From contig JALHLV010000012.1 of assembly GCA_022844405.1 (NCBI GenBank), forward strand, positions 1 through 64,000: DNA of 64,000 nt, read 5' to 3'. The stretch comes from Sphingomonadales bacterium (lineage in GTDB: Bacteria; Pseudomonadota; Alphaproteobacteria; SMXS01). The position numbers were made by a program, and so were the translations under genes. The notes beneath the pieces were generated by a model. The model was given only the letters and a program-made list of their open reading frames with translations. It searched no databases and was not told where the DNA came from. This document shows, piece after piece, positions 35,752 through 46,535 of the stretch. Positions within the stretch are counted from its first letter, which is position 1. Each line of letters begins with the position of its first letter.

Positions 35752-36042
35752 TCAGATGCTGGTGCCGGCCCGCTCGGCGGACTTGGCGCGCGCCGCGTCC
35801 TTGTCCGTGAAATAGAGCGCATTGATCTCGATGAAATCCTTGGCAGCCGGCGGAATCTCATGGTCGGCGAAAATCGCGCCCACCGGGCAGGCCGAAACGC
35901 ACACCCCGCAATCGATGCACTGGTCAGGCTCGATATAGACCATGCGGTCCTCGTCCTCCTGGTAGATGCAGTCCACCGGGCAGACCTCGATGCAGGACAT
36001 GTCCTTGACGTCGATGCAGGCGTTGCTGATTACGTAAGTCAT
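35752..36042 (-). CDS. fdxA: Seven-iron ferredoxin FdxA
   Basis: A 96-residue electron carrier. The N-terminal 3Fe-4S/4Fe-4S pattern is visible: CIDVKDMSCIEVCPVDCIYQ, then CIDCGVCVSACPVGAI, followed by the usual C-terminal extension of about 40 residues. Start at the second methionine (MTYVIS), the conserved FdxA N-terminus. It is transcribed away from the P450 gene 290 nt off and may supply electrons to the P450s or the desaturase; this is inferred from position only. Confidence 0.93.
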   Translation of the reverse strand: MTYVISNACIDVKDMSCIEVCPVDCIYQEDEDRMVYIEPDQCIDCGVCVSACPVGAIFADHEIPPAAKDFIEINALYFTDKDAARAKSAERAGTSI

Positions 36043-36242
36043 CGTGTTCCCGAGCCTCAAGCTAGCTTGGCCGACCCGGCACGGTCGGCTCGTTTCTTAA
36101 TCTTTCCGCGCGGCACTGTACCACCTGGAACGTGAAGCCGCAGGCCGGAAAATGGCCTGCTGGCGGCACGCGGAAGCGGCGATTTCCCCATACTGCGCGG
36201 CGTCATCCCAATGCGCGCATTACGCTCGCGAGAGCCCATCAA
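36043..36242. other. Intergenic region between fdxA and the P450 cluster
   Basis: Divergent promoter region. It contains a small palindrome CAAGCTAGCTTG (36058-36069), next to the fdxA start. No gene is seen. The P450 upstream element begins at 36243. Confidence 0.35.
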
Positions 36243-36333: not shown

Positions 36334-37785
36334 ATGAATACGGAACCCTTCGCCTCGGTGTTCGCCCGCGCCATCGGCGCCGACGCCGGAGACGCCGTGG
36401 AGAAAGCGGCGGATGGCGACTTCCAGGACATCTTTCCCCTGATGCCGGTGGGCCAGCGGGTCGACATGGGAACGGCGCCGGACGGCACGCCGCTGATCGA
36501 CCCGCGCATCTTCTTTTCCGCCGAGTTCCGCCGCAATCCGTGGCCGTATTACCGGCTGATGCGCGACCACTATCCGGTCTATTTCAACCAGCTCAACAAC
36601 ACCTATTACGTCACCCGCTACGACGACATGACCGAGTGTTATTTCGACGACATCGGCTTCAACACGATTCCGAAGGGCTCGTCGAACGGCGTGCTGGGGA
36701 ACGTGACCCACGAGCTGAGCGGCGTCGAGCACCGCCGCCGGCGCAACCTGTTCGGCCAGCACCTGGTCGGCAAGGCGCTGGAGAATCGGGTGCCGGCCAT
36801 CGAGCGGCTGGCGCAGGAGATGATCGACGACTGGTCCAACGTGGACGCGCCGTGGTGCATCACCAACGGCAATGTCCGCACCATCGAGCTGGGCCAGGCC
36901 TTCGCCGATTCGTTCCCGGTCCGCGTGGTCTGCGACGTCCTCGGCTTCCCGAGCGAAGCGCGCGGCAACTTCGTGTACTGGTACAATTCGATCATGAGCG
37001 GCCTGGGCGCGTCCGAGACCCACAAGCAGGGCATGGAGGCGCGCCAACACCTGGAGGACTTCGTCGAGTCCATCGTCGAGGACCGCCGCAAGAACCCGAC
37101 CTACCTCTACGACAATGCCGGCAGGAATATCGGCAAGGACATCATCTCCAAGCTGTGCGAGAGCCAGGTCGATGGCGACTATCTGTCGACCGAGGAGATC
37201 ACCGCGCTGATCGCGCTGGTGGTGGCGGGCGGCGGCGAGACGACGCGCGGCACGCTGATGAACATGTGGTACAGCCTGCTGCAGAAGCCCGACCAGGCCG
37301 AGGCGGCGCTGGCCGACGAGGCCCTGTGGGACGCGGTGTTCCACGAGACGTTGCGCCATTCCAATCCGATCGGCGGCCAGCCGCGTCACGCCACCTTCGA
37401 CGTACAGATTCACGGTACCGTCGTGCCCGCCGGATCGCTGATCGAGATGGTCAACTTCTCGGGCAGCCACGACGAGCGCATCTTCCACGACGCGGACAAT
37501 TTCAACATCTTCCGGCCCGACCTCTACACCGGCAAGCTGCTACGCAGCGGCTACCGCACGGAAGGCAAATGCAGCCACATGGCGTTCGGCGTCGGCCCGC
37601 ACATGTGTCCAGGTGCCTGGATCTCGCACCAGGAAGCAGTGATCGGCTCGAAGATCCTGTCGCGGACCATGAAAAACCCGCGCATCAACCGGGACCGCAT
37701 GCCAAAGGACATAGACGGCGTCAGCCTCGCGCCCATCGGCATCAACAAGACCCGCGAGCTGTGGCTCGATTACGATCTGGCCTAG
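36334..37785 (+). CDS. Cytochrome P450, intact (unit 1, gene A)
   Basis: A 483-residue soluble bacterial P450, with an unusually long N-terminal segment of about 45 residues. I-helix oxygen motif LVVAGGGETTRG, ExxR in FHETLRHSNP, and the heme loop FGVGPHMCPG with Cys425 as thiolate ligand. Closely related to gene A of unit 2 (shared SSNGVLGN/SSSGVLGN, YWYNS.MSGLG, DYLSTEEIT, GKLLRSGYR). ATG 36334 follows GGGGATTTG; a TTG at 36316 is possible. Gene B begins 10 nt after its stop. Substrate unknown; likely a hydrophobic carbon source. Confidence 0.92.
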   Translation: MNTEPFASVFARAIGADAGDAVEKAADGDFQDIFPLMPVGQRVDMGTAPDGTPLIDPRIFFSAEFRRNPWPYYRLMRDHYPVYFNQLNNTYYVTRYDDMTECYFDDIGFNTIPKGSSNGVLGNVTHELSGVEHRRRRNLFGQHLVGKALENRVPAIERLAQEMIDDWSNVDAPWCITNGNVRTIELGQAFADSFPVRVVCDVLGFPSEARGNFVYWYNSIMSGLGASETHKQGMEARQHLEDFVESIVEDRRKNPTYLYDNAGRNIGKDIISKLCESQVDGDYLSTEEITALIALVVAGGGETTRGTLMNMWYSLLQKPDQAEAALADEALWDAVFHETLRHSNPIGGQPRHATFDVQIHGTVVPAGSLIEMVNFSGSHDERIFHDADNFNIFRPDLYTGKLLRSGYRTEGKCSHMAFGVGPHMCPGAWISHQEAVIGSKILSRTMKNPRINRDRMPKDIDGVSLAPIGINKTRELWLDYDLA

Positions 37786-37795
37786 GACCGGCGGC

Positions 37796-39166
37796 ATGAG
37801 CACCGAAGCGAAGCAAGCGGCCAAGCCGCCGGCCTATGGCGCCGGCGCCCCCGACAAGGACGCCTTCACCGGCCGCAACGGCGTGCCGCTGTACACCCGC
37901 AACGGCAACCAGAACGACTATCGGACCTACGAGGTCTACCAGCGCGAACGGGTCAAGGAGGCCACCGACAAGATCCGTCCGATCCAGCTGATCTCGCCCG
38001 AGTTCATCAGGAATCCGTATCCGGTACTGGAAATCCTGCGCGAGAACTATCCGTTCTACCGCGACTGGCTGGGCAATTCGTTCTGGGTGACGCGCTATGA
38101 CGATGTGACGTCGATCTTCACCGACGATGCCAACTTCGAGACCAGGCCGAAACGCTGGTTCTACGACATCGAGGACCTGGGCCGCGACCTGGGCCAGGAA
38201 GTGGCGCTGCTGACGGCGCAGGCGACCCGCATCGACGCTAATGTGGAGCGCATCGCCCGCGAGATCGTCGGCGGCTTCAAGGCCGGTGGCGGCACCGACC
38301 TCGCCATCGAGTTCGCCGCGCGGCTGCCGCTGGAGCTGCTGGCCTGCGTGCTCGACCTGCCCAAGGACGATTTTCCCAAATTCGTCGACCGCTACTGGCG
38401 GATGCAGCGCGGCGCCATGTGGGAGCCGAAGAGCCGGCAGGCGGGTCTGGGCGCCGTCCAGGAACTGGTCGAATATTTCCGGCCCCTGCTGGCCGCGCGC
38501 AGGGCCAATCCCGGCGACGACCTGATCTCGGCGGTGGCGATGCTGGATACCGATGGCGCCCCGGCCACCGCCGAGGATCTGGTGATCACCTTGCTGGAGC
38601 AGGACCACGAGACGCTCCACGGGGCGCTTGCCAACATGTGGTTCCAGTTGCTCACCCATCCGGAGCAGCTCGACCTGGTCAAGCGCGAGCGGCGCATGGT
38701 GAAGTTTGCCTGGCTGGAGACGCTGCGCCATTCGGCGCCGGTGCTGACCGCCAACCGCTTCGCGCGGCACGAGGTGGAGCGCTTCGGCCGGCTGATCCCG
38801 ATCGGCGCGCTGCTGCACTGCTCGGCGGCCGCCGCCAACCGCGACCCGCGCCAGTACAAGGATCCCGACAGGTTCATCGTCGGCCGCAAGGATCTGTGCC
38901 AGCGCGAGCCGCGCGGCCAGTACCGCGCCGACGGCCTGCCGGCCGGTGTGGCGTTCGGCCTGGGCAAGCCGTCGAAGCATCCGGCGGTGCCCGAGGACCG
39001 GCCAAGGTCGCTCTATGCCATCACCCGCGACACGGCGACGACGGCGTCAAACGTGTTGCTGGACGTGGTGCCCGAAGTCAGGCTGAAGCCCGGCGCGACG
39101 CCGGCGCTGCGCAGCCTTCGGCTGGGCGAAATGCACACCTGCTGGAACCTGCCCGTCGTGTTCTGA
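37796..39166 (+). CDS. P450-fold protein lacking the heme-ligand cysteine (unit 1, gene B)
   Basis: A 456-residue protein with clear P450 sequence from about residue 60: NPYPVLEILRENYPFYRDWL, VTRYDDVTSIFTDD, an I-helix equivalent LLEQDHETLHG, and ExxR in LETLRHSAP. The heme loop reads AFGLGKPSKHPAVPEDRP from residue 386. At the cysteine position (F+7) there is lysine, and the F+5 histidine is proline. The frame is continuous and homology runs on to the C-terminus, so this is not a frameshift. A helper or heterodimer subunit for gene A is the simplest reading. EryCII/DesVIII-type P450 homologues are a known precedent for Cys-less helpers, but those serve glycosyltransferases. Confidence 0.85.
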   Translation: MSTEAKQAAKPPAYGAGAPDKDAFTGRNGVPLYTRNGNQNDYRTYEVYQRERVKEATDKIRPIQLISPEFIRNPYPVLEILRENYPFYRDWLGNSFWVTRYDDVTSIFTDDANFETRPKRWFYDIEDLGRDLGQEVALLTAQATRIDANVERIAREIVGGFKAGGGTDLAIEFAARLPLELLACVLDLPKDDFPKFVDRYWRMQRGAMWEPKSRQAGLGAVQELVEYFRPLLAARRANPGDDLISAVAMLDTDGAPATAEDLVITLLEQDHETLHGALANMWFQLLTHPEQLDLVKRERRMVKFAWLETLRHSAPVLTANRFARHEVERFGRLIPIGALLHCSAAAANRDPRQYKDPDRFIVGRKDLCQREPRGQYRADGLPAGVAFGLGKPSKHPAVPEDRPRSLYAITRDTATTASNVLLDVVPEVRLKPGATPALRSLRLGEMHTCWNLPVVF

Positions 39167-39193
39167 GCGCGGCGGATTTCCGCCGTTTATCCA

Positions 39194-39240
39194 GTCACGT
39201 GTGACTTTTGATTCATTGCCAATCCGCCATCGAGGATGTA
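39194..39240 (+). promoter_or_regulatory. Shared upstream element of P450 unit 2
   Basis: GTCACGTGTGACTTTT (39194-39209; dyad GTCAC-GT-GTGAC), then TCATTGC, then GATGTA (39235-39240), 44 nt before the P450 ATG. Same order and spacing as at 36243-36290. Confidence 0.5.
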
Positions 39241-39284
39241 GGTTGGCACGATCCGGCCCAACCTGAACCGAACGAGGCCCTCGA

Positions 39285-40763
39285 ATGGACTCCATCACCG
39301 CTTTTCTCAGCAACATCGTCGAAAACACCGACGCCAAGCCGAGCGAGGGCAGCGGCCCTTCGGCCAAGCCCGGCAGCGTGCCGCGGGCACAGTCGCTGTC
39401 GAGCCACGACTTCCCGCTGATGCCGGTCGGTCAGGCCTGCGACATGGGCCATGCGCCCGACGGCACGCCGCTGATCGACTCGCGCATCTTCAATTCCTTC
39501 GAATTCTTCCGGAACCCGTATCCCTACTACCGGATCATGCGGGATCACTATCCGGTGTTCTTCGACAAGCTGCACAACTGCTACTACGTCACCCGCTACG
39601 ACGACATCACCACCTGCTATTTCGACGACGAGGGCTTCAACACCATCCCGAAGGGCTCATCGAGCGGCGTGCTGGGCAATACCCAGCTGGAACTCAGCGG
39701 CGTGGAACACCGGCGCCGGCGCAACCTGTACGGCCAGCATCTGGTCGGCAAGTCGCTCGACAACCGCCTGCACGCCATCGAGGCCATCGGCGAGGAAATG
39801 ATCGCCGACTGGGGCAATCTGGACGAGAGCATCGTGCAGGACCGCAACGGCGTCCGCACGGTCGCCATCGGCAAGGCGTTCGCCAACGAGTTCCCGATCC
39901 GCGTGGTCTGCGATGTGCTCGGCTTCCCCAAGGAGTCCCGGAAGAAGTTCTTCTACTGGTACAATTCCATGATGTCCGGCCTCGGCGGCTCGGAGACCCA
40001 CCACCAGGGCCTCGAGGCGCGCCAGGATCTGGAGGACTATGTCGGCACGCTGGTCGAGGAGCGCCGCGCGCACCCGACCTACCTGTACGACGCGGCAGGC
40101 GACCCCATCGGCAAGGACATCATCTCCAAGCTGTGCGAGACCCAGATCGACGGCGACTATCTGTCGACCGAGGAGATCACCTCGAACATCGCGCTGGTGG
40201 TGGGCGGCGGCGGCGAGACCACCCGCGGCGCCATCCTGAACATGTGGTACCTGCTGCTGCAACACCCGAGGCAGCTCGACGCGGTGCTGGCCGATCCGGA
40301 GACCATGTGGGACGTGGCGTTCCACGAGACGCTGCGCCATTCGACGCCGATCGGCGGCCAGCCGCGCCACAACTCGTTCGACATCGAACTGCACGGGGTG
40401 AAGATTCCGGCCGGCTCGCTGGTCAACATGGTCGACTTCTCGGCCAACCACGACGACCGCATCTTCAAGGATCCGGAAACCTTCAACATCTTCCGGCCGG
40501 ACCTGTACAGCGGCAAGCTGTTGCGCAGCGGCTACCGCAAGGAAGGCAAGTGCAGCCACATGGCGTTCGGCGTCGGCCCGCACCTGTGCCCCGGCGCGTG
40601 GATTTCCCATCAGGAAGCGGTGATCGGCTCGAAGATCCTGCAGCGTCACCTGAAGAATCCGCGCCTGAACGTGGACAAGATGCCGAAGGATTTCGACGGC
40701 AGCCTGCTGCCGATCGGCCTCATCTCGGCCAGGGAAGTCTGGATCGACTACGACCTGAACTAG
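39285..40763 (+). CDS. Cytochrome P450, intact (unit 2, gene A)
   Basis: A 492-residue P450, close paralogue of the 36334-37785 product. Long N-terminus with a Ser/Pro-rich stretch, then LMPVGQACDMGHAPDGTPLI as in unit 1. I-helix LVVGGGGETTRG, ExxR in FHETLRHSTP, heme loop FGVGPHLCPG with Cys435. The upstream element is shared with unit 1, so the whole two-gene block appears duplicated with its promoter. Gene B follows after 9 nt. The N-terminal 40 residues differ most between the copies. Confidence 0.92.
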   Translation: MDSITAFLSNIVENTDAKPSEGSGPSAKPGSVPRAQSLSSHDFPLMPVGQACDMGHAPDGTPLIDSRIFNSFEFFRNPYPYYRIMRDHYPVFFDKLHNCYYVTRYDDITTCYFDDEGFNTIPKGSSSGVLGNTQLELSGVEHRRRRNLYGQHLVGKSLDNRLHAIEAIGEEMIADWGNLDESIVQDRNGVRTVAIGKAFANEFPIRVVCDVLGFPKESRKKFFYWYNSMMSGLGGSETHHQGLEARQDLEDYVGTLVEERRAHPTYLYDAAGDPIGKDIISKLCETQIDGDYLSTEEITSNIALVVGGGGETTRGAILNMWYLLLQHPRQLDAVLADPETMWDVAFHETLRHSTPIGGQPRHNSFDIELHGVKIPAGSLVNMVDFSANHDDRIFKDPETFNIFRPDLYSGKLLRSGYRKEGKCSHMAFGVGPHLCPGAWISHQEAVIGSKILQRHLKNPRLNVDKMPKDFDGSLLPIGLISAREVWIDYDLN

Positions 40764-40772
40764 GGCATTACC

Positions 40773-42152
40773 ATGAGCACGACAGAAACGATCCGGGCCA
40801 CGGCGGGCACCGGCAAGCCTCAGGATGCGGCGGCGCCCAAGGTCACCTATGGCCGCAACGGCGTGCCGATCACGCCGGGCGGCCTCAAGGGCGACGGCTT
40901 CCGCACCTACGAAGTCCACCAGCGCGAGCGGCTGGGCCAGTCGACGGCGAAGATCAAGCCGATGCAGCTGATCTCGCCGGAGTTCATCCGCGATCCCTAC
41001 CCGTTGCTGGAGATCCTGCGCGAGAACTATCCCAGCTACCGCGACTGGCTGGAGAACGCCTACTGGATCACCCGCTATGACGACGTGACGTCGATCTTCA
41101 CCGACGACGCCAATTTCGAGACCCGCCCGCGCCGCTGGTTCTACAACATCGCCGACTATGGCCGCGACCTGCGCCTGGAGCTGCCGGTGCTGTTCGCCCA
41201 GGCGGAGGCCATCGACGACAACGCACAGCCCGCCGCCGAGCAGATCGTCGGCGACATCAGGGCCAAAGGCAGCGCCAACCTCGGCATCGACTTCGCCGCC
41301 CGCTTCGCGCTGGAGTTGCTGGTGCGCCAGCTCGACCTGCCGAAGGAAGACGCGCCGCTGTTCTGCGAGCGTTATTGGCGGATGACCCACGGCTTCAACA
41401 CGGACCCGGTCGCCGAACAGGACGGCCTCGCCGCGATCCGCGAACTGACCGCCTATTTCCGGCCGCTGCTCGCCCGGCGCCGCGCCGAACCCGGCGAGGA
41501 CCTGATCTCGGCGGTTGCCGGCCTCGACCTCGACGGCGGTCCCGCCACGGCCGAGGATCTGGTGATCACGCTGCTGGAAGGCGACCACGAAACGCTGCAT
41601 GGCGGCCTGGCCAACACCCTGTTCCTGCTGCTGACCCATCCGGACCAGTTCCAGAAGGTCAAGGACGAGCGCCGCATGGCCAAGTTCGCCTTTCTCGAGG
41701 CGCTGCGTCACTCCGCGCCGGTGCTGGCGGCCCGCCGCTTCGCGCGGCACGAGGTGGAGCGCTTCGGCAAGCTGATCCCCGGCGGCGGCATGATCATCTG
41801 CTCGGCCGGCGCGGCCAACCGCGACCCGCGCCAGTACAAGGAGCCGGAGAAATTCATCGTCGGCCGCAAGGACCTGTGCCAGCGCGAGCCGCGCGGCCAG
41901 TACCGCGCCGACGGCCTGCCCGCCGGCATCGCCTTCGGCCTGGGCAAGCCGTCGAAGCATCCGGCGGTACCCGAAGACCGGCCGCGCTCGCTCTATGCCA
42001 TCACCCGCGACACGGCGACGACGGCGCTCAACGTGCTGATCGACGGTCTGCCCGGCCTGCGGCTGAAGCCGGGCGCCAGGCCGGAGCTGCGCTCGCTGAA
42101 GCTGTGGGATACGCATACCTGCTGGGATTTGCCGGTCGACTTCGACCACTGA
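40773..42152 (+). CDS. P450-fold protein lacking the heme-ligand cysteine (unit 2, gene B)
   Basis: A 459-residue paralogue of the unit 1 gene B product. It shares NGVP, RTYEV.QRER, ISPEFIR.PYP, FTDDANFETRP, ATAEDLVITLLE, and LCQREPRGQYRADGLPAG. The heme loop from residue 387 is again AFGLGKPSKHPAVPEDRP, with no cysteine and no F+5 histidine. The loop is identical in both paralogues although the rest has diverged, so it is under constraint. ExxR is kept (LEALRHSAP has E-ALR, and the Arg is present). The conserved HTCW near the C-terminus is the only other shared cysteine besides DLCQRE. Strong terminator 24 nt downstream. Confidence 0.85.
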   Translation: MSTTETIRATAGTGKPQDAAAPKVTYGRNGVPITPGGLKGDGFRTYEVHQRERLGQSTAKIKPMQLISPEFIRDPYPLLEILRENYPSYRDWLENAYWITRYDDVTSIFTDDANFETRPRRWFYNIADYGRDLRLELPVLFAQAEAIDDNAQPAAEQIVGDIRAKGSANLGIDFAARFALELLVRQLDLPKEDAPLFCERYWRMTHGFNTDPVAEQDGLAAIRELTAYFRPLLARRRAEPGEDLISAVAGLDLDGGPATAEDLVITLLEGDHETLHGGLANTLFLLLTHPDQFQKVKDERRMAKFAFLEALRHSAPVLAARRFARHEVERFGKLIPGGGMIICSAGAANRDPRQYKEPEKFIVGRKDLCQREPRGQYRADGLPAGIAFGLGKPSKHPAVPEDRPRSLYAITRDTATTALNVLIDGLPGLRLKPGARPELRSLKLWDTHTCWDLPVDFDH

Positions 42153-42301: not shown

Positions 42302-43495
42302 GTGGCACGGGCTGAACTGATCGAGATGGCGCGCGACAATATCGGGCACGCGCAGGCGGGCACGATCACGCAGGAGCCGGAGGTGTTCAAGGTGCCGGCG
42401 TCGAACTATTTCGACCCGGACCGCTTTAGGCTGGAAATCGACAGGGTTTTCAAGCGCATCCCGCTGATGCTGGCGGCCACCGCAGAGCTGCCGCAGCCGG
42501 GCGACTACAAGGCCATGGACGTGGTCGGCCTGCCGGTGCTGATATCGCGCGGCGGCGACGGGGTCGCCCGTGCGTTCATCAACTCGTGCAGCCATCGCGG
42601 CGCACCCATCGTCAAGTTGGGCACCGGCAAGGCCAAGCGGTTCATTTGCGGCTATCACGCGTGGTCGTTCGACTACAAGGGCAACCTGGTCGCGGTCGCC
42701 GCCAAGGACGATTTCGGCGACATCGACATGGCGCAATACGGCCTGGTGCCGCTACCGATCACCGAGCGCGCCGGCCTGATCTGGGTCATCCTCGATCCGG
42801 ATTCCCCGGTCGAGATGGACGCGTTCTTGTCCGGCTACGATGAGATGCTGGGCGCCTTCGGCCTGGAGAACTGGCACCTGTTCGAGGCCCGCACCCTGAA
42901 GGGCCCGAACTGGAAGATCGCCTATGACGGCTATCTGGACCTGTACCACCTGCCCGTGCTGCACCGGGAGACCTTCGGCGAGCAGATGTCCAACCGCGCA
43001 CTGTACTACGCCTGGGGACCGCACCAGCGGGTGACCTCGCCGTCCAGGCAGATGATCGGCCTGCTGGAAAAGCCCGAGGACGAGTGGAGCGCCGACGTGC
43101 TGTCCGCCGGCGTCTGGACCATCTTCCCGCACATCTCCATCGCCTCGTTCCGCGGCGGCGGGCGCGCCATCATGCTGTCGCAGTTGTTTCCCGGCGAAAC
43201 GCCCGGCGAATCCTTCACCACGCAGATGTACCTGATGGAGAAGGAGCCCACCGACGAGCAGCGGCTCGAGGCGCTGCAGCAGTTCAAGCTGCTGGAATAT
43301 GTCGTGCAGGAGGAGGACTACGCCACCGGCCTGCGCCAGCAGAAGGCACTGGAGAGCGGCGCGCGCAAGTTCGTGCTGTTCGGCCGCAACGAGGGCGGCG
43401 GACACCGCTTCCACCGCTGGGTGGACAGGATCCTGGAGACCAGCGACCAGGACCTGAACACGCTGTTCCGCTCGGGCGATCCCCGGCTTTCTTAA
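42302..43495 (+). CDS. Rieske non-heme iron oxygenase, alpha subunit
   Basis: A 397-residue ring-hydroxylating-type oxygenase. The Rieske 2Fe-2S motif is NSCSHRGAPIV ... FICGYHAWSFDYKG. The mononuclear iron site is in DGYLDLYHLPVLH (two His, with an Asp carboxylate later in the domain). GTG 42302 follows GAGGTGGG. No beta subunit or reductase is adjacent, so it probably draws on a shared ferredoxin. Such stand-alone oxygenases hydroxylate or demethylate aromatic, steroid or terpenoid compounds; the substrate is unknown. Confidence 0.9.
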   Translation: MARAELIEMARDNIGHAQAGTITQEPEVFKVPASNYFDPDRFRLEIDRVFKRIPLMLAATAELPQPGDYKAMDVVGLPVLISRGGDGVARAFINSCSHRGAPIVKLGTGKAKRFICGYHAWSFDYKGNLVAVAAKDDFGDIDMAQYGLVPLPITERAGLIWVILDPDSPVEMDAFLSGYDEMLGAFGLENWHLFEARTLKGPNWKIAYDGYLDLYHLPVLHRETFGEQMSNRALYYAWGPHQRVTSPSRQMIGLLEKPEDEWSADVLSAGVWTIFPHISIASFRGGGRAIMLSQLFPGETPGESFTTQMYLMEKEPTDEQRLEALQQFKLLEYVVQEEDYATGLRQQKALESGARKFVLFGRNEGGGHRFHRWVDRILETSDQDLNTLFRSGDPRLS

Positions 43496-43540: not shown

Positions 43541-43963
43541 ATGAAGCCAGTATTGCTATTGGTCGCGGCAAGCGCGGCGATCCTGGTCGCCGCAGGCGCG
43601 GGCGCATCGGAAAAGCTCGGATATCCCGCCCACGAGCTGCTGGTGACCAACGCCGATGTCCTGGGGCAACAGATCGTCTACCCGGCAGGCAAACCAAGGA
43701 TCACCTCCGCCATCGTCACGATCCAGCCGGGCGGCGAAGGCCAGCTTCACCGGCACGATGTGCCCATGTACGCCTATGTGCTGCAGGGCGTGGTGACGGT
43801 GGATTACGGCAGCCACGGCACCAGGGTGTTCAGGCAGGGCGAGGCCGTGATGGAAGCCCTGCATGTCCCACACAAAGGGATGAACAAGGGCGCCGAGCCG
43901 GTCGCCCTGCTCGTCGTCTACATGGGCGCCGAAGGCACGCCCAACGCCACGCCGGTGGAATGA
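43541..43963 (+). CDS. Secreted cupin-domain protein
   Basis: A 140-residue protein with a signal peptide (LLLVAASAAILVAAGAGA) and one cupin barrel. Metal-site motifs are recognisable in GGEGQLHRHDVPMYAYVLQG and the second half FRQGEAVMEALHVPHKG. GGAGG precedes the ATG. It follows the Rieske gene by 45 nt on the same strand and ends at a hairpin. Periplasmic location inferred; activity unknown. Confidence 0.82.
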   Translation: MKPVLLLVAASAAILVAAGAGASEKLGYPAHELLVTNADVLGQQIVYPAGKPRITSAIVTIQPGGEGQLHRHDVPMYAYVLQGVVTVDYGSHGTRVFRQGEAVMEALHVPHKGMNKGAEPVALLVVYMGAEGTPNATPVE

Positions 43964-44206: not shown

Positions 44207-45502
44207 TCACTCTGGATCGAATTCCAGCCACAGCTCGGCCGGCGAGCGGAACCCGCCGGAGTCGATGTTGGGCGAGAAGATGCCCGCGTGCTCCTTGAAC
44301 TTGGGCCGGATGTTTTTCAGCGAGTTGGCGAAGTAGGCGCAGGCGAGCACCGCTTCCTGCCGGGCCATGGCATAGCCCATGCAGAAATGCTGCCCCATGC
44401 CGAAGCCGAGATGGCCGGGCTTGCCGTCCTTGTAGCGGCCGGACCGGTTCTCGCGGCCCATATGCAGGTCGTCGCGGAAGGCGTCGAAGGTGTCCGGGTC
44501 CTTGAACACCCGCTCGTCGCGGTTGCCGGCGCCGAGGTAGATCAGCACCAGCGCACCCTTCGGGATCACCTCGTCATAGAGCGCCATCTCGTTGACGGTG
44601 CGGCGGCCCTGGGTGTGCACCACCGGGTCATAGCGCATCATCTCGGTGAACACGTTCTCCCACAGGTCCGGCGTCGCCTTCACCCGGTCGAACTGGTCCG
44701 GGCGCGTGTACATCATGTGATACATCATGTTGGCGATGGCCTTGTCGGTGGTGTCGCCACCGGCGGCGAGCAGCAGGGCGACGAAGCCCTTGATCTCGTC
44801 CATGTCCATCTTCACGCCGTCGAGCTCGGCCGCGATGATCCGCGACAGCAGGTCCTCGCCGGGGTTCTTGCTGCGTTGGTTGATCAGCGGCTCCAAGTAC
44901 TCCCACATCTCGTTGCGGGCGGCGATGCCGCGCGCCAGATGCACGCCGCCGAAGCCGAGGCCGGCGATCAGCGCCTGGTACCAGCCGACGAACATGTTCT
45001 CGTCCTCGCGTGGCAGGCCCAGCATGTTGGAGATGACGCGGATCGGGAACTGGTGGCTGAACTGGGTGACCAGCTCGACCTCGCCGTCCTTGCGGAACTT
45101 GTCGATCAGCTCGCGGGCGATCATGTCGATCACCGGCAGGAAGTCGTTCAGCTTCTGGCCGACGAACTGGCCGGCGATGACGTTGCGCAGCCAGCGGTGG
45201 CGGTCGCCGCGGCCATATTCCAGGATGTTCGGGCCGAACACGTGGCGCGAGCCGAACTTGTAGGGTCCCTCCTCTTCATAGATGCCGCGGGTGTAGGCCT
45301 CGCTGTTCTGGAACACGGCGTCCACGTCCCAGTAGCGGGTGATCACCCATCTGTTGTGGAAACGGTCGTGGTACACCGGGTGATGGTCCCGCAGGCGCTT
45401 GTAAAGCGGGAACGGGTCGCGCTGGAATTCGGGCTTGTCGAATTCGCGCGGATCGATGTCGTTCTTCAGGCGCTCTTTGATCATTTCCTCGACGGCCGAC
45501 AT
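44207..45502 (-). CDS. Cytochrome P450 (with ferredoxin partner)
   Basis: A 431-residue soluble P450 of a different subfamily from the tandem units. ATG 45502 follows GGGGAG. I-helix LLLAAGGDTTDKA, ExxR in FTEMMRYDPVVHTQGRR, heme loop FGMGQHFCMG with Cys374. The length and motifs are normal. It is divergent from the Tat-SDR gene, 193 nt apart. Substrate unknown. Confidence 0.92.
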   Translation of the reverse strand: MSAVEEMIKERLKNDIDPREFDKPEFQRDPFPLYKRLRDHHPVYHDRFHNRWVITRYWDVDAVFQNSEAYTRGIYEEEGPYKFGSRHVFGPNILEYGRGDRHRWLRNVIAGQFVGQKLNDFLPVIDMIARELIDKFRKDGEVELVTQFSHQFPIRVISNMLGLPREDENMFVGWYQALIAGLGFGGVHLARGIAARNEMWEYLEPLINQRSKNPGEDLLSRIIAAELDGVKMDMDEIKGFVALLLAAGGDTTDKAIANMMYHMMYTRPDQFDRVKATPDLWENVFTEMMRYDPVVHTQGRRTVNEMALYDEVIPKGALVLIYLGAGNRDERVFKDPDTFDAFRDDLHMGRENRSGRYKDGKPGHLGFGMGQHFCMGYAMARQEAVLACAYFANSLKNIRPKFKEHAGIFSPNIDSGGFRSPAELWLEFDPE

Positions 45503-45695
45503 GTGCTCTCCCCAGCCATATCGCATCGCACCCAGTGGCGATGCCCAGGTCCAGGCGAATGCTAGCGCAACGCCCGACCACGGGACAAGCACGTATGAAG
45601 GTGAAAAAGCCGATTCAGAATTCAGCAACGGCCATGGCGATCCGCCGCGATGCCTCCTATCATCCGCTGCGACACGCAAAACGGGGAGATGCGGG

Positions 45696-46535
45696 ATGAG
45701 CGGCAACGGGTTGGGAAGACGCGATCTATTGAAGGGGGCGGCCATCGCGGCCGCGGCGACGGCGACGCTGGCGGCGGGCGCGGCCCGCGCCGAGGCGCCG
45801 AAGGGCCGCTTCGCGGGCAAGACGGTGCTGATCACCGGCGGCACATCGGGCATCGGCGCGGCGACGGCGCACGCCTTCGCCGCCGAGGGCGCCAATGTGG
45901 TGATCTGCGGCCGGCGCGAGGCGCTGGGCAAGGAGACCGAGGCAGCGATCCGCGCCAAGGGCGGCAACTGCACCTACATCCAGGCCGACGTGCGCGAGGA
46001 GGCGCAGGTCGCCAGGCTGGTGGACGCGACGGTCGCGGCCCATGGCGGCATCGACATCGCGTTCAACAACGCCGGCATCGAAGGGCCGTTCTCGCCGTTC
46101 ATCGACGTGCCGATCGACGGCACCATGGGATACCACGACACGATCCGCACCAACCTGGACGGCGTGTTCTTCGGCATCCGGCACGCGCTGCGGGTGATGC
46201 TGCCGAAGAAGGCCGGCGTGATCCTCAACACCGCCTCGATCGCGGGCACCAACAGCCTGGCGGGCAACGCCACCTACGCGGCCAGCAAGCACGGCGTGAT
46301 CGGCCTGACCAAATCGGCGGCCAAGGCGCACACCAAGGACGGCATACGGGTGGTGTCTGTATCGCCCGGCGCCGTCGACACGCCGCTGCTGCGGCGCGCC
46401 CTGGGCGGCAACGTACCCACCGGCCGCATCGGCAAGCCCGAGGAGATCGCGGCGCTGGTTCTTACCATCGCCGCGCCCGAATCCGCCTACATCTCGGGCG
46501 CGGACTTCGTCATCGACGGCGGCAGCACGGCTTAA
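45696..46535 (+). CDS. Tat-exported short-chain dehydrogenase
   Basis: A 279-residue SDR with a twin-arginine signal (GRRDLLKGAAIAAAATATLA, then ARAEA), which is unusual for an NAD(P)-dependent enzyme. Core motifs: TGGTSGIGAATAHAFAAEGA, FNNAGIEGPF, catalytic Ser in NTASIAGTNS, YAASKHGVIG, and C-terminal GADFVIDGGSTA. GGGGAG precedes the ATG. The signal implies folding with bound cofactor before export. Alternatively the N-terminus is only an anchor. It is followed 11 nt later by a SnoaL-like gene. Confidence 0.85.
   Translation: MSGNGLGRRDLLKGAAIAAAATATLAAGAARAEAPKGRFAGKTVLITGGTSGIGAATAHAFAAEGANVVICGRREALGKETEAAIRAKGGNCTYIQADVREEAQVARLVDATVAAHGGIDIAFNNAGIEGPFSPFIDVPIDGTMGYHDTIRTNLDGVFFGIRHALRVMLPKKAGVILNTASIAGTNSLAGNATYAASKHGVIGLTKSAAKAHTKDGIRVVSVSPGAVDTPLLRRALGGNVPTGRIGKPEEIAALVLTIAAPESAYISGADFVIDGGSTA

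Follow-up and report, generated by a model that had tools for sequence, protein, structure and literature searches.

Cytochrome P450s are generally regarded as complete single-chain oxygenases that are served only by redox partners. What, then, is the role of a P450-fold protein that lacks the heme cysteine and is encoded directly behind an intact P450? The question is raised by a stretch of bacterial DNA of 64,000 nucleotides (the window), where such a pair of genes, here called A and B, stands twice in succession.

The P450 gene pairs of the window

The first-pass annotation described two adjacent units at 36334-42152, each made of an intact P450 gene and a gene for a Cys-less P450-fold protein. 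We verified the coordinates, the residues and the gaps of 9-10 nt. The features of the locus, with the neighbours discussed below, are as follows.

35752..36060, - strand: 7Fe-type (4Fe-4S/3Fe-4S) ferredoxin, divergent to A1; Pfam Fer4 and relatives; likely ATG at about 36042
36334..37785, + strand: A1, intact P450, 483 aa; Cys425 in FGVGPHMC, ExxR at 338-341, C-helix HRRRR, I-helix AGGGET
37796..39166, + strand: B1, heme-less P450-fold protein and putative partner, 456 aa; GKPSK loop at 38963-38977, HETLH at 38606-38620
39285..40763, + strand: A2, intact P450, A1 paralogue, 492 aa; Cys435 in FGVGPHLC
40773..42152, + strand: B2, heme-less P450-fold protein and putative partner, B1 paralogue, 459 aa; GKPSK loop at 41943-41957, HETLH at 41586-41600
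42302..43495, + strand: Rieske-type ring-hydroxylating oxygenase alpha subunit; Pfam Rieske and Ring_hydroxyl_A
44207..45973, - strand: P450 C, intact, in one clade with A and B; the gene probably starts near 45535

A1 and A2 carry every P450 hallmark, namely the Cys loop, ExxR, the C-helix H-R and the I-helix G-x-E-T. The B start codon lies 10 nt behind the A stop codon in the first unit and 9 nt in the second. The two A proteins are 72% identical and the two B proteins 71%, whereas A and B share 28-32%. Both B proteins read FGLGKPSKHPAVPEDRP where A has FGVGPH(M/L)CPG; as the annotation had noted, Lys occupies the Cys position and Pro the His position. The Pfam p450 model scores 21 bits for B1 and 29 bits for B2, compared with 88-96 for A.

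We aligned 21 B genes with 41 intact P450s. None of the 21 has the heme Cys; its position is taken by Lys or Arg in 20 and by Ile in one (G099), and the next residue is His in 18, Phe in two and Tyr in one. The claim that the substituted loop is identical among the partners thus holds within the window's genome, where B1 equals B2, but not across the family. B has no FxxGxHxCxG heme loop with a Cys ligand. In the alignment, the C-helix stretch that bears the heme-propionate His/Arg (HRRRR in A) is deleted, one turn is missing at the start of the I helix, and about nine additional residues follow the former Cys. The I-helix Gly-Gly is replaced as well, position 270 being Asp in every B and Gly in all 41 other P450s. 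The Glu and Arg of ExxR are invariant in the 21 B proteins, and the Arg after ExxR is also retained.

The family has also gained signatures. There are 103 positions invariant in all 21 B proteins, of which 43 are B-specific (nearly absent from other P450s) and 32 are common to most other P450s. Judged from the alignment, B is a protein under its own constraints and not a worn-out P450. The present analysis adds to the earlier annotation a HEXXH-type motif on the I helix: A reads G-G-G-E-T-T-R, whereas B has a conserved E-x-D-H-E-T-x-H. All 21 B proteins have E268, D270, H271 and H275, residues seldom or never found at these positions in the 41 other P450s; position 272 is Glu in 20 B proteins and Gln in one (L033). 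The novelty of the motif lies in the two His, E268 and D270, since its Glu-Thr comes from P450 ancestry. Further invariants found only in B are H325, C368, H447 and C449. A conserved N-terminal RTYE..QRER is predicted, at modest confidence, to form a short helix at 45-53 in the AlphaFold2 model of B1.

That model has a P450 fold (pLDDT 80, pTM 0.80, from 20 sequences only), with low confidence in the former heme loop at 392-401. A Foldseek search returned P450s at probability 1.00, and the best solved-structure match was CYP134A1. We also predicted A2 and B2 as one fused chain, B2 being in frame with A2 and the TAG stop of A2 being read through as Gln; at a pTM of 0.41, this prediction is uninformative on an interface and speaks neither for nor against a complex.

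Distribution, descent and pairing of the B family

We found 21 B genes in 14 genomes, spread over three alphaproteobacterial families and three gammaproteobacterial metagenome-assembled genomes (MAGs). The window's family, represented by ten genomes, accounts for 15 of them, carried by eight of these genomes; two further families of its class contribute three, and the gammaproteobacterial MAGs another three. Across a sample of the class, B is present in 8 of 385 genomes. A second class, probably Gammaproteobacteria, yielded no B in 369 genomes, nor did a small third class in 78, and no further B came from the phylum sample. The plasmid search returned only P450s below 60% identity (best rows 25-32%), and the phage search gave no match. 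The B family is rare, given 8 of 385 genomes in its class and none of the 369 in another. An assembly artefact was considered and rejected, because the same arrangement occurs in independent genomes of the three alphaproteobacterial families and in the three gammaproteobacterial MAGs. One sequence titled Candidatus Kuenenia stuttgartiensis (CALQFM020000009.1, L031) carries the same A-B locus as G003, a genome of the window's genus; the organism label of this MAG looks wrong.

Does B always follow A, as the annotation had proposed to check? All 21 B genes stand directly behind an A gene on the same strand, at a distance of about 3-26 nt or, with another choice of start codon, possibly overlapping it, and no solitary B was found. 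The searches thus did not show B homologues mostly lacking an A neighbour, which the annotation had named as a refutation. Across its ten genomes, the window's family holds 15 A genes and 15 B genes, which match one to one.

The two genes also share their history. Within the genus, dN/dS spans 0.08-0.20 among B genes and 0.06-0.16 among A genes. The A and B trees mirror each other in the A1B1 versus A2B2 split and in the G008/G009, G131/G234 and L033/L034 pairs, in a quick tree with several weak forks. The mirrored groupings include the pair of the gammaproteobacterial UBA2965, and the gammaproteobacterial L035 falls inside the A1B1 side in both trees. The A and B distance matrices correlate at r = 0.69, a value reached by none of 5000 permutations; linked genes would correlate anyway, so this correlation indicates co-inheritance and not contact. 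These data show that A and B were inherited, duplicated and spread together. They also bear out the annotation's view that the loss of the Cys is ancestral and constrained rather than decay, as the Cys is absent from every B and dN/dS is low.

To place B among its relatives, we built a tree with 33 other P450s of the genome. A, B, C and a further P450, D, form one clade with 100% SH-aLRT; the branch of B is long, and its position inside the clade is tentative. Most likely, B arose from a P450 of the A/C/D clade, as read from a tree built without EryCII-type sequences. The 34 further P450 genes retrieved from the genome all keep the heme Cys, as does P450 C of the window, and the loss is therefore specific to B. 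D, a 36%-identical match on contig C5 that was suspected to be Cys-less, proved to be an intact P450 with FGLGAHFC. The window (C12:1-64000) belongs to a 3.78 Mb genome that holds about 37 intact P450 genes in addition to B1 and B2, and the relatives of this genome are similarly P450-rich.

The annotation had proposed an obligate heterodimer or helper. No B was found without an A, whereas A-like P450s do occur alone. A sister subfamily of A, A3 (60-61% identity to A1), occurs without B in G001, G003 and G004 (L069:8555-9997, L070:5979-7772 and L071:2075-3523), so B is not a general requirement of A-like P450s. No B was found in the genomes G001 and G004, G004 being only 78% complete. In A3, the C-helix His is changed to Asn and the Arg after ExxR to Lys; of the 192 positions invariant in the 21 A proteins, 21 differ in A3. 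A3 without B offers a natural control for the role of B.

Possible roles of B and comparison with known systems

Heme-less P450-fold proteins are already known as helpers of glycosyltransferases. EryCII has a P450 fold without the Cys and C helices and acts as a scaffold that stabilises and activates the glycosyltransferase EryCIII; its nearest structures are CYP125 and CypX, and it contacts its partner with a long extra N-terminal helix (PMC3391682). B resembles EryCII, DesVIII and DnrQ in having a P450 fold without the heme Cys, in the apparent loss of the C helix and in a gene that lies beside that of its presumed partner. As for EryCII, the nearest structure of B is CypX/CYP134A1. It differs from them in that its partner gene encodes a P450 and not a glycosyltransferase, and it has I-helix and loop signatures of its own. 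Against TIGR04515, the model of EryCII-type activators, the B proteins score 86.4 and 91.0 bits, far from the cut-off of 343 and close to the 81 bits of the intact P450 C. Membership of B in that activator family was rejected on this score and because no glycosyltransferase was present among the part of the neighbours that was scanned. The best NCBIfam model for both A and B is TIGR04538, an intact-P450 model, and both are far below its cut-off of 500 bits. With the CYP134A1 (CypX)/TIGR04538 group, A and B have the fold in common, and CYP134A1 heads the Foldseek matches of B; unlike that group, B is without heme-binding residues.

Two other systems come near to the A-B pair. In mammalian P450-P450 complexes, one P450 modulates another by direct contact (PMC5276844); there, however, both partners are heme enzymes, they sit on the membrane, and they are not encoded by fixed gene pairs. 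EutEFG is a split, apparently inactive P450 that was suggested to assist EutC (PMC11574762). Like B as proposed here, it derives from a P450, is catalytically inactive and would help structurally; it consists, however, of three frame-shifted pieces in one cluster, whereas the B genes form a conserved heme-less family whose members each accompany a P450. The open-access papers searched contained no description of a P450 paired with a heme-less P450, in agreement with the annotation, which knew of no such system and had set the pairing apart from the glycosyltransferase helpers.

We lean, by a modest degree, towards B being a P450-derived protein without heme that serves the catalytic P450 A as a dedicated partner, because the fold is kept, the heme site is lost, the protein is conserved, its gene always stands behind A, and it was duplicated and spread together with A. 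A and B would then be co-translated and assemble into a hetero-complex, where the P450 scaffold of B may stabilise A, shape the entry of substrate or present A to ferredoxin; by analogy, B would act on A as EryCII acts on EryCIII. Co-inheritance and mirrored trees, however, are also compatible with two enzymes of one pathway, the correlation being in good part the shared descent of linked genes, and A3, the sister of A, has no B beside it. Nor does a plain scaffold obviously need a strongly conserved polar motif on its I helix. That motif is the main argument for an unlikely but weighty alternative, read from conserved residues, in which B is an enzyme of its own with a new, possibly metal, site at E-x-D-H-E-T-x-H and takes the substrate or product of A as its own substrate; the pairing would then arise without a complex. 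The invariance of E268, D270, H271 and H275 across B and their scarcity in the other P450s compared favour it, and H325, C368, H447 and C449 could supply ligands. Against it, the Glu-Thr is inherited from the acid-alcohol pair of P450s, so that only the two His are new within HEXXH, one B has Gln in place of the Glu, and the motif by itself is no proof of metal binding. A combination of both ideas, in which B carries such a possibly metal-dependent site and is complexed with the intact P450, would make a two-site enzyme for which we found no precedent; we consider it improbable.

About as improbable, to our judgement, is a B that binds a substrate or intermediate, or that serves as a docking or regulatory factor for a ferredoxin or a Rieske enzyme, and is not a subunit of A. 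A heme-free P450 fold has space for a ligand, and genes for ferredoxin and Rieske proteins turn up repeatedly next to the pair, but they are not universal neighbours, and only A is adjacent in all 21 cases. We give very little credence to B as an unusual heme enzyme that would bind heme through Lys394, His395 or an I-helix His. Such a ligand would suit the loop, where 20 of the 21 proteins have Lys/Arg in place of the Cys and 18 have His directly after it. In G099, however, the Lys is Ile, and three B proteins have Phe or Tyr for the His; as Lys394 and His395 are not invariant and the C helix is gone, an alternative ligand in the old loop is unlikely. B further lacks the C-helix His/Arg and the loop His, and bulky charged residues stand in for the I-helix Gly-Gly in all B proteins. 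The lost catalytic residues would also be expected of a decaying, functionless P450 copy, to which we assign next to no chance: all 21 B genes are full length, their dN/dS indicates purifying selection, and B is retained with A across genera and classes. Decay was therefore rejected.

A conserved A-B family of dedicated partners would show that the P450 superfamily has made pseudoenzyme subunits for P450s, as it has for glycosyltransferases. Such a pairing could account for the failure of some bacterial P450s that are expressed alone, and A-B is a directly testable pair. Should the I-helix motif be a real site, B would be a rare case of a P450 fold shifted to other chemistry.

Neighbouring genes and possible substrate

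At 13 of the 16 A-B loci, the ferredoxin gene lies next to the first A in divergent orientation; of the other three loci, L042 is covered by less than 900 bases upstream. At the A3 loci, no ferredoxin homologue was found. This ferredoxin is a plausible electron donor of A. Homologues of the Rieske protein are encoded beside A-B in G008 and G009 (63-64%) and beside A3 in G001 (62%), and the Rieske oxygenase of the window probably belongs to the same pathway as A-B. Other neighbours of the pair encode thiolase, SnoaL-like, PhyH, zinc dehydrogenase, flavin monooxygenase and SDR proteins. The Rieske, dehydrogenase, thiolase and SnoaL-like genes point, if faintly, to the catabolism of a hydrophobic compound, which suggests a hydrophobic molecule as the substrate of A-B.

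Behind the Rieske gene, at 43541-43963, lies a gene for a small cupin-domain protein with a signal-like N terminus, and similar small proteins are encoded near P450 C in relatives. In G007 (L040:8084-13236), the genes for A, B, a zinc dehydrogenase and D follow one another on one strand, which brings three members of the clade into one cluster.
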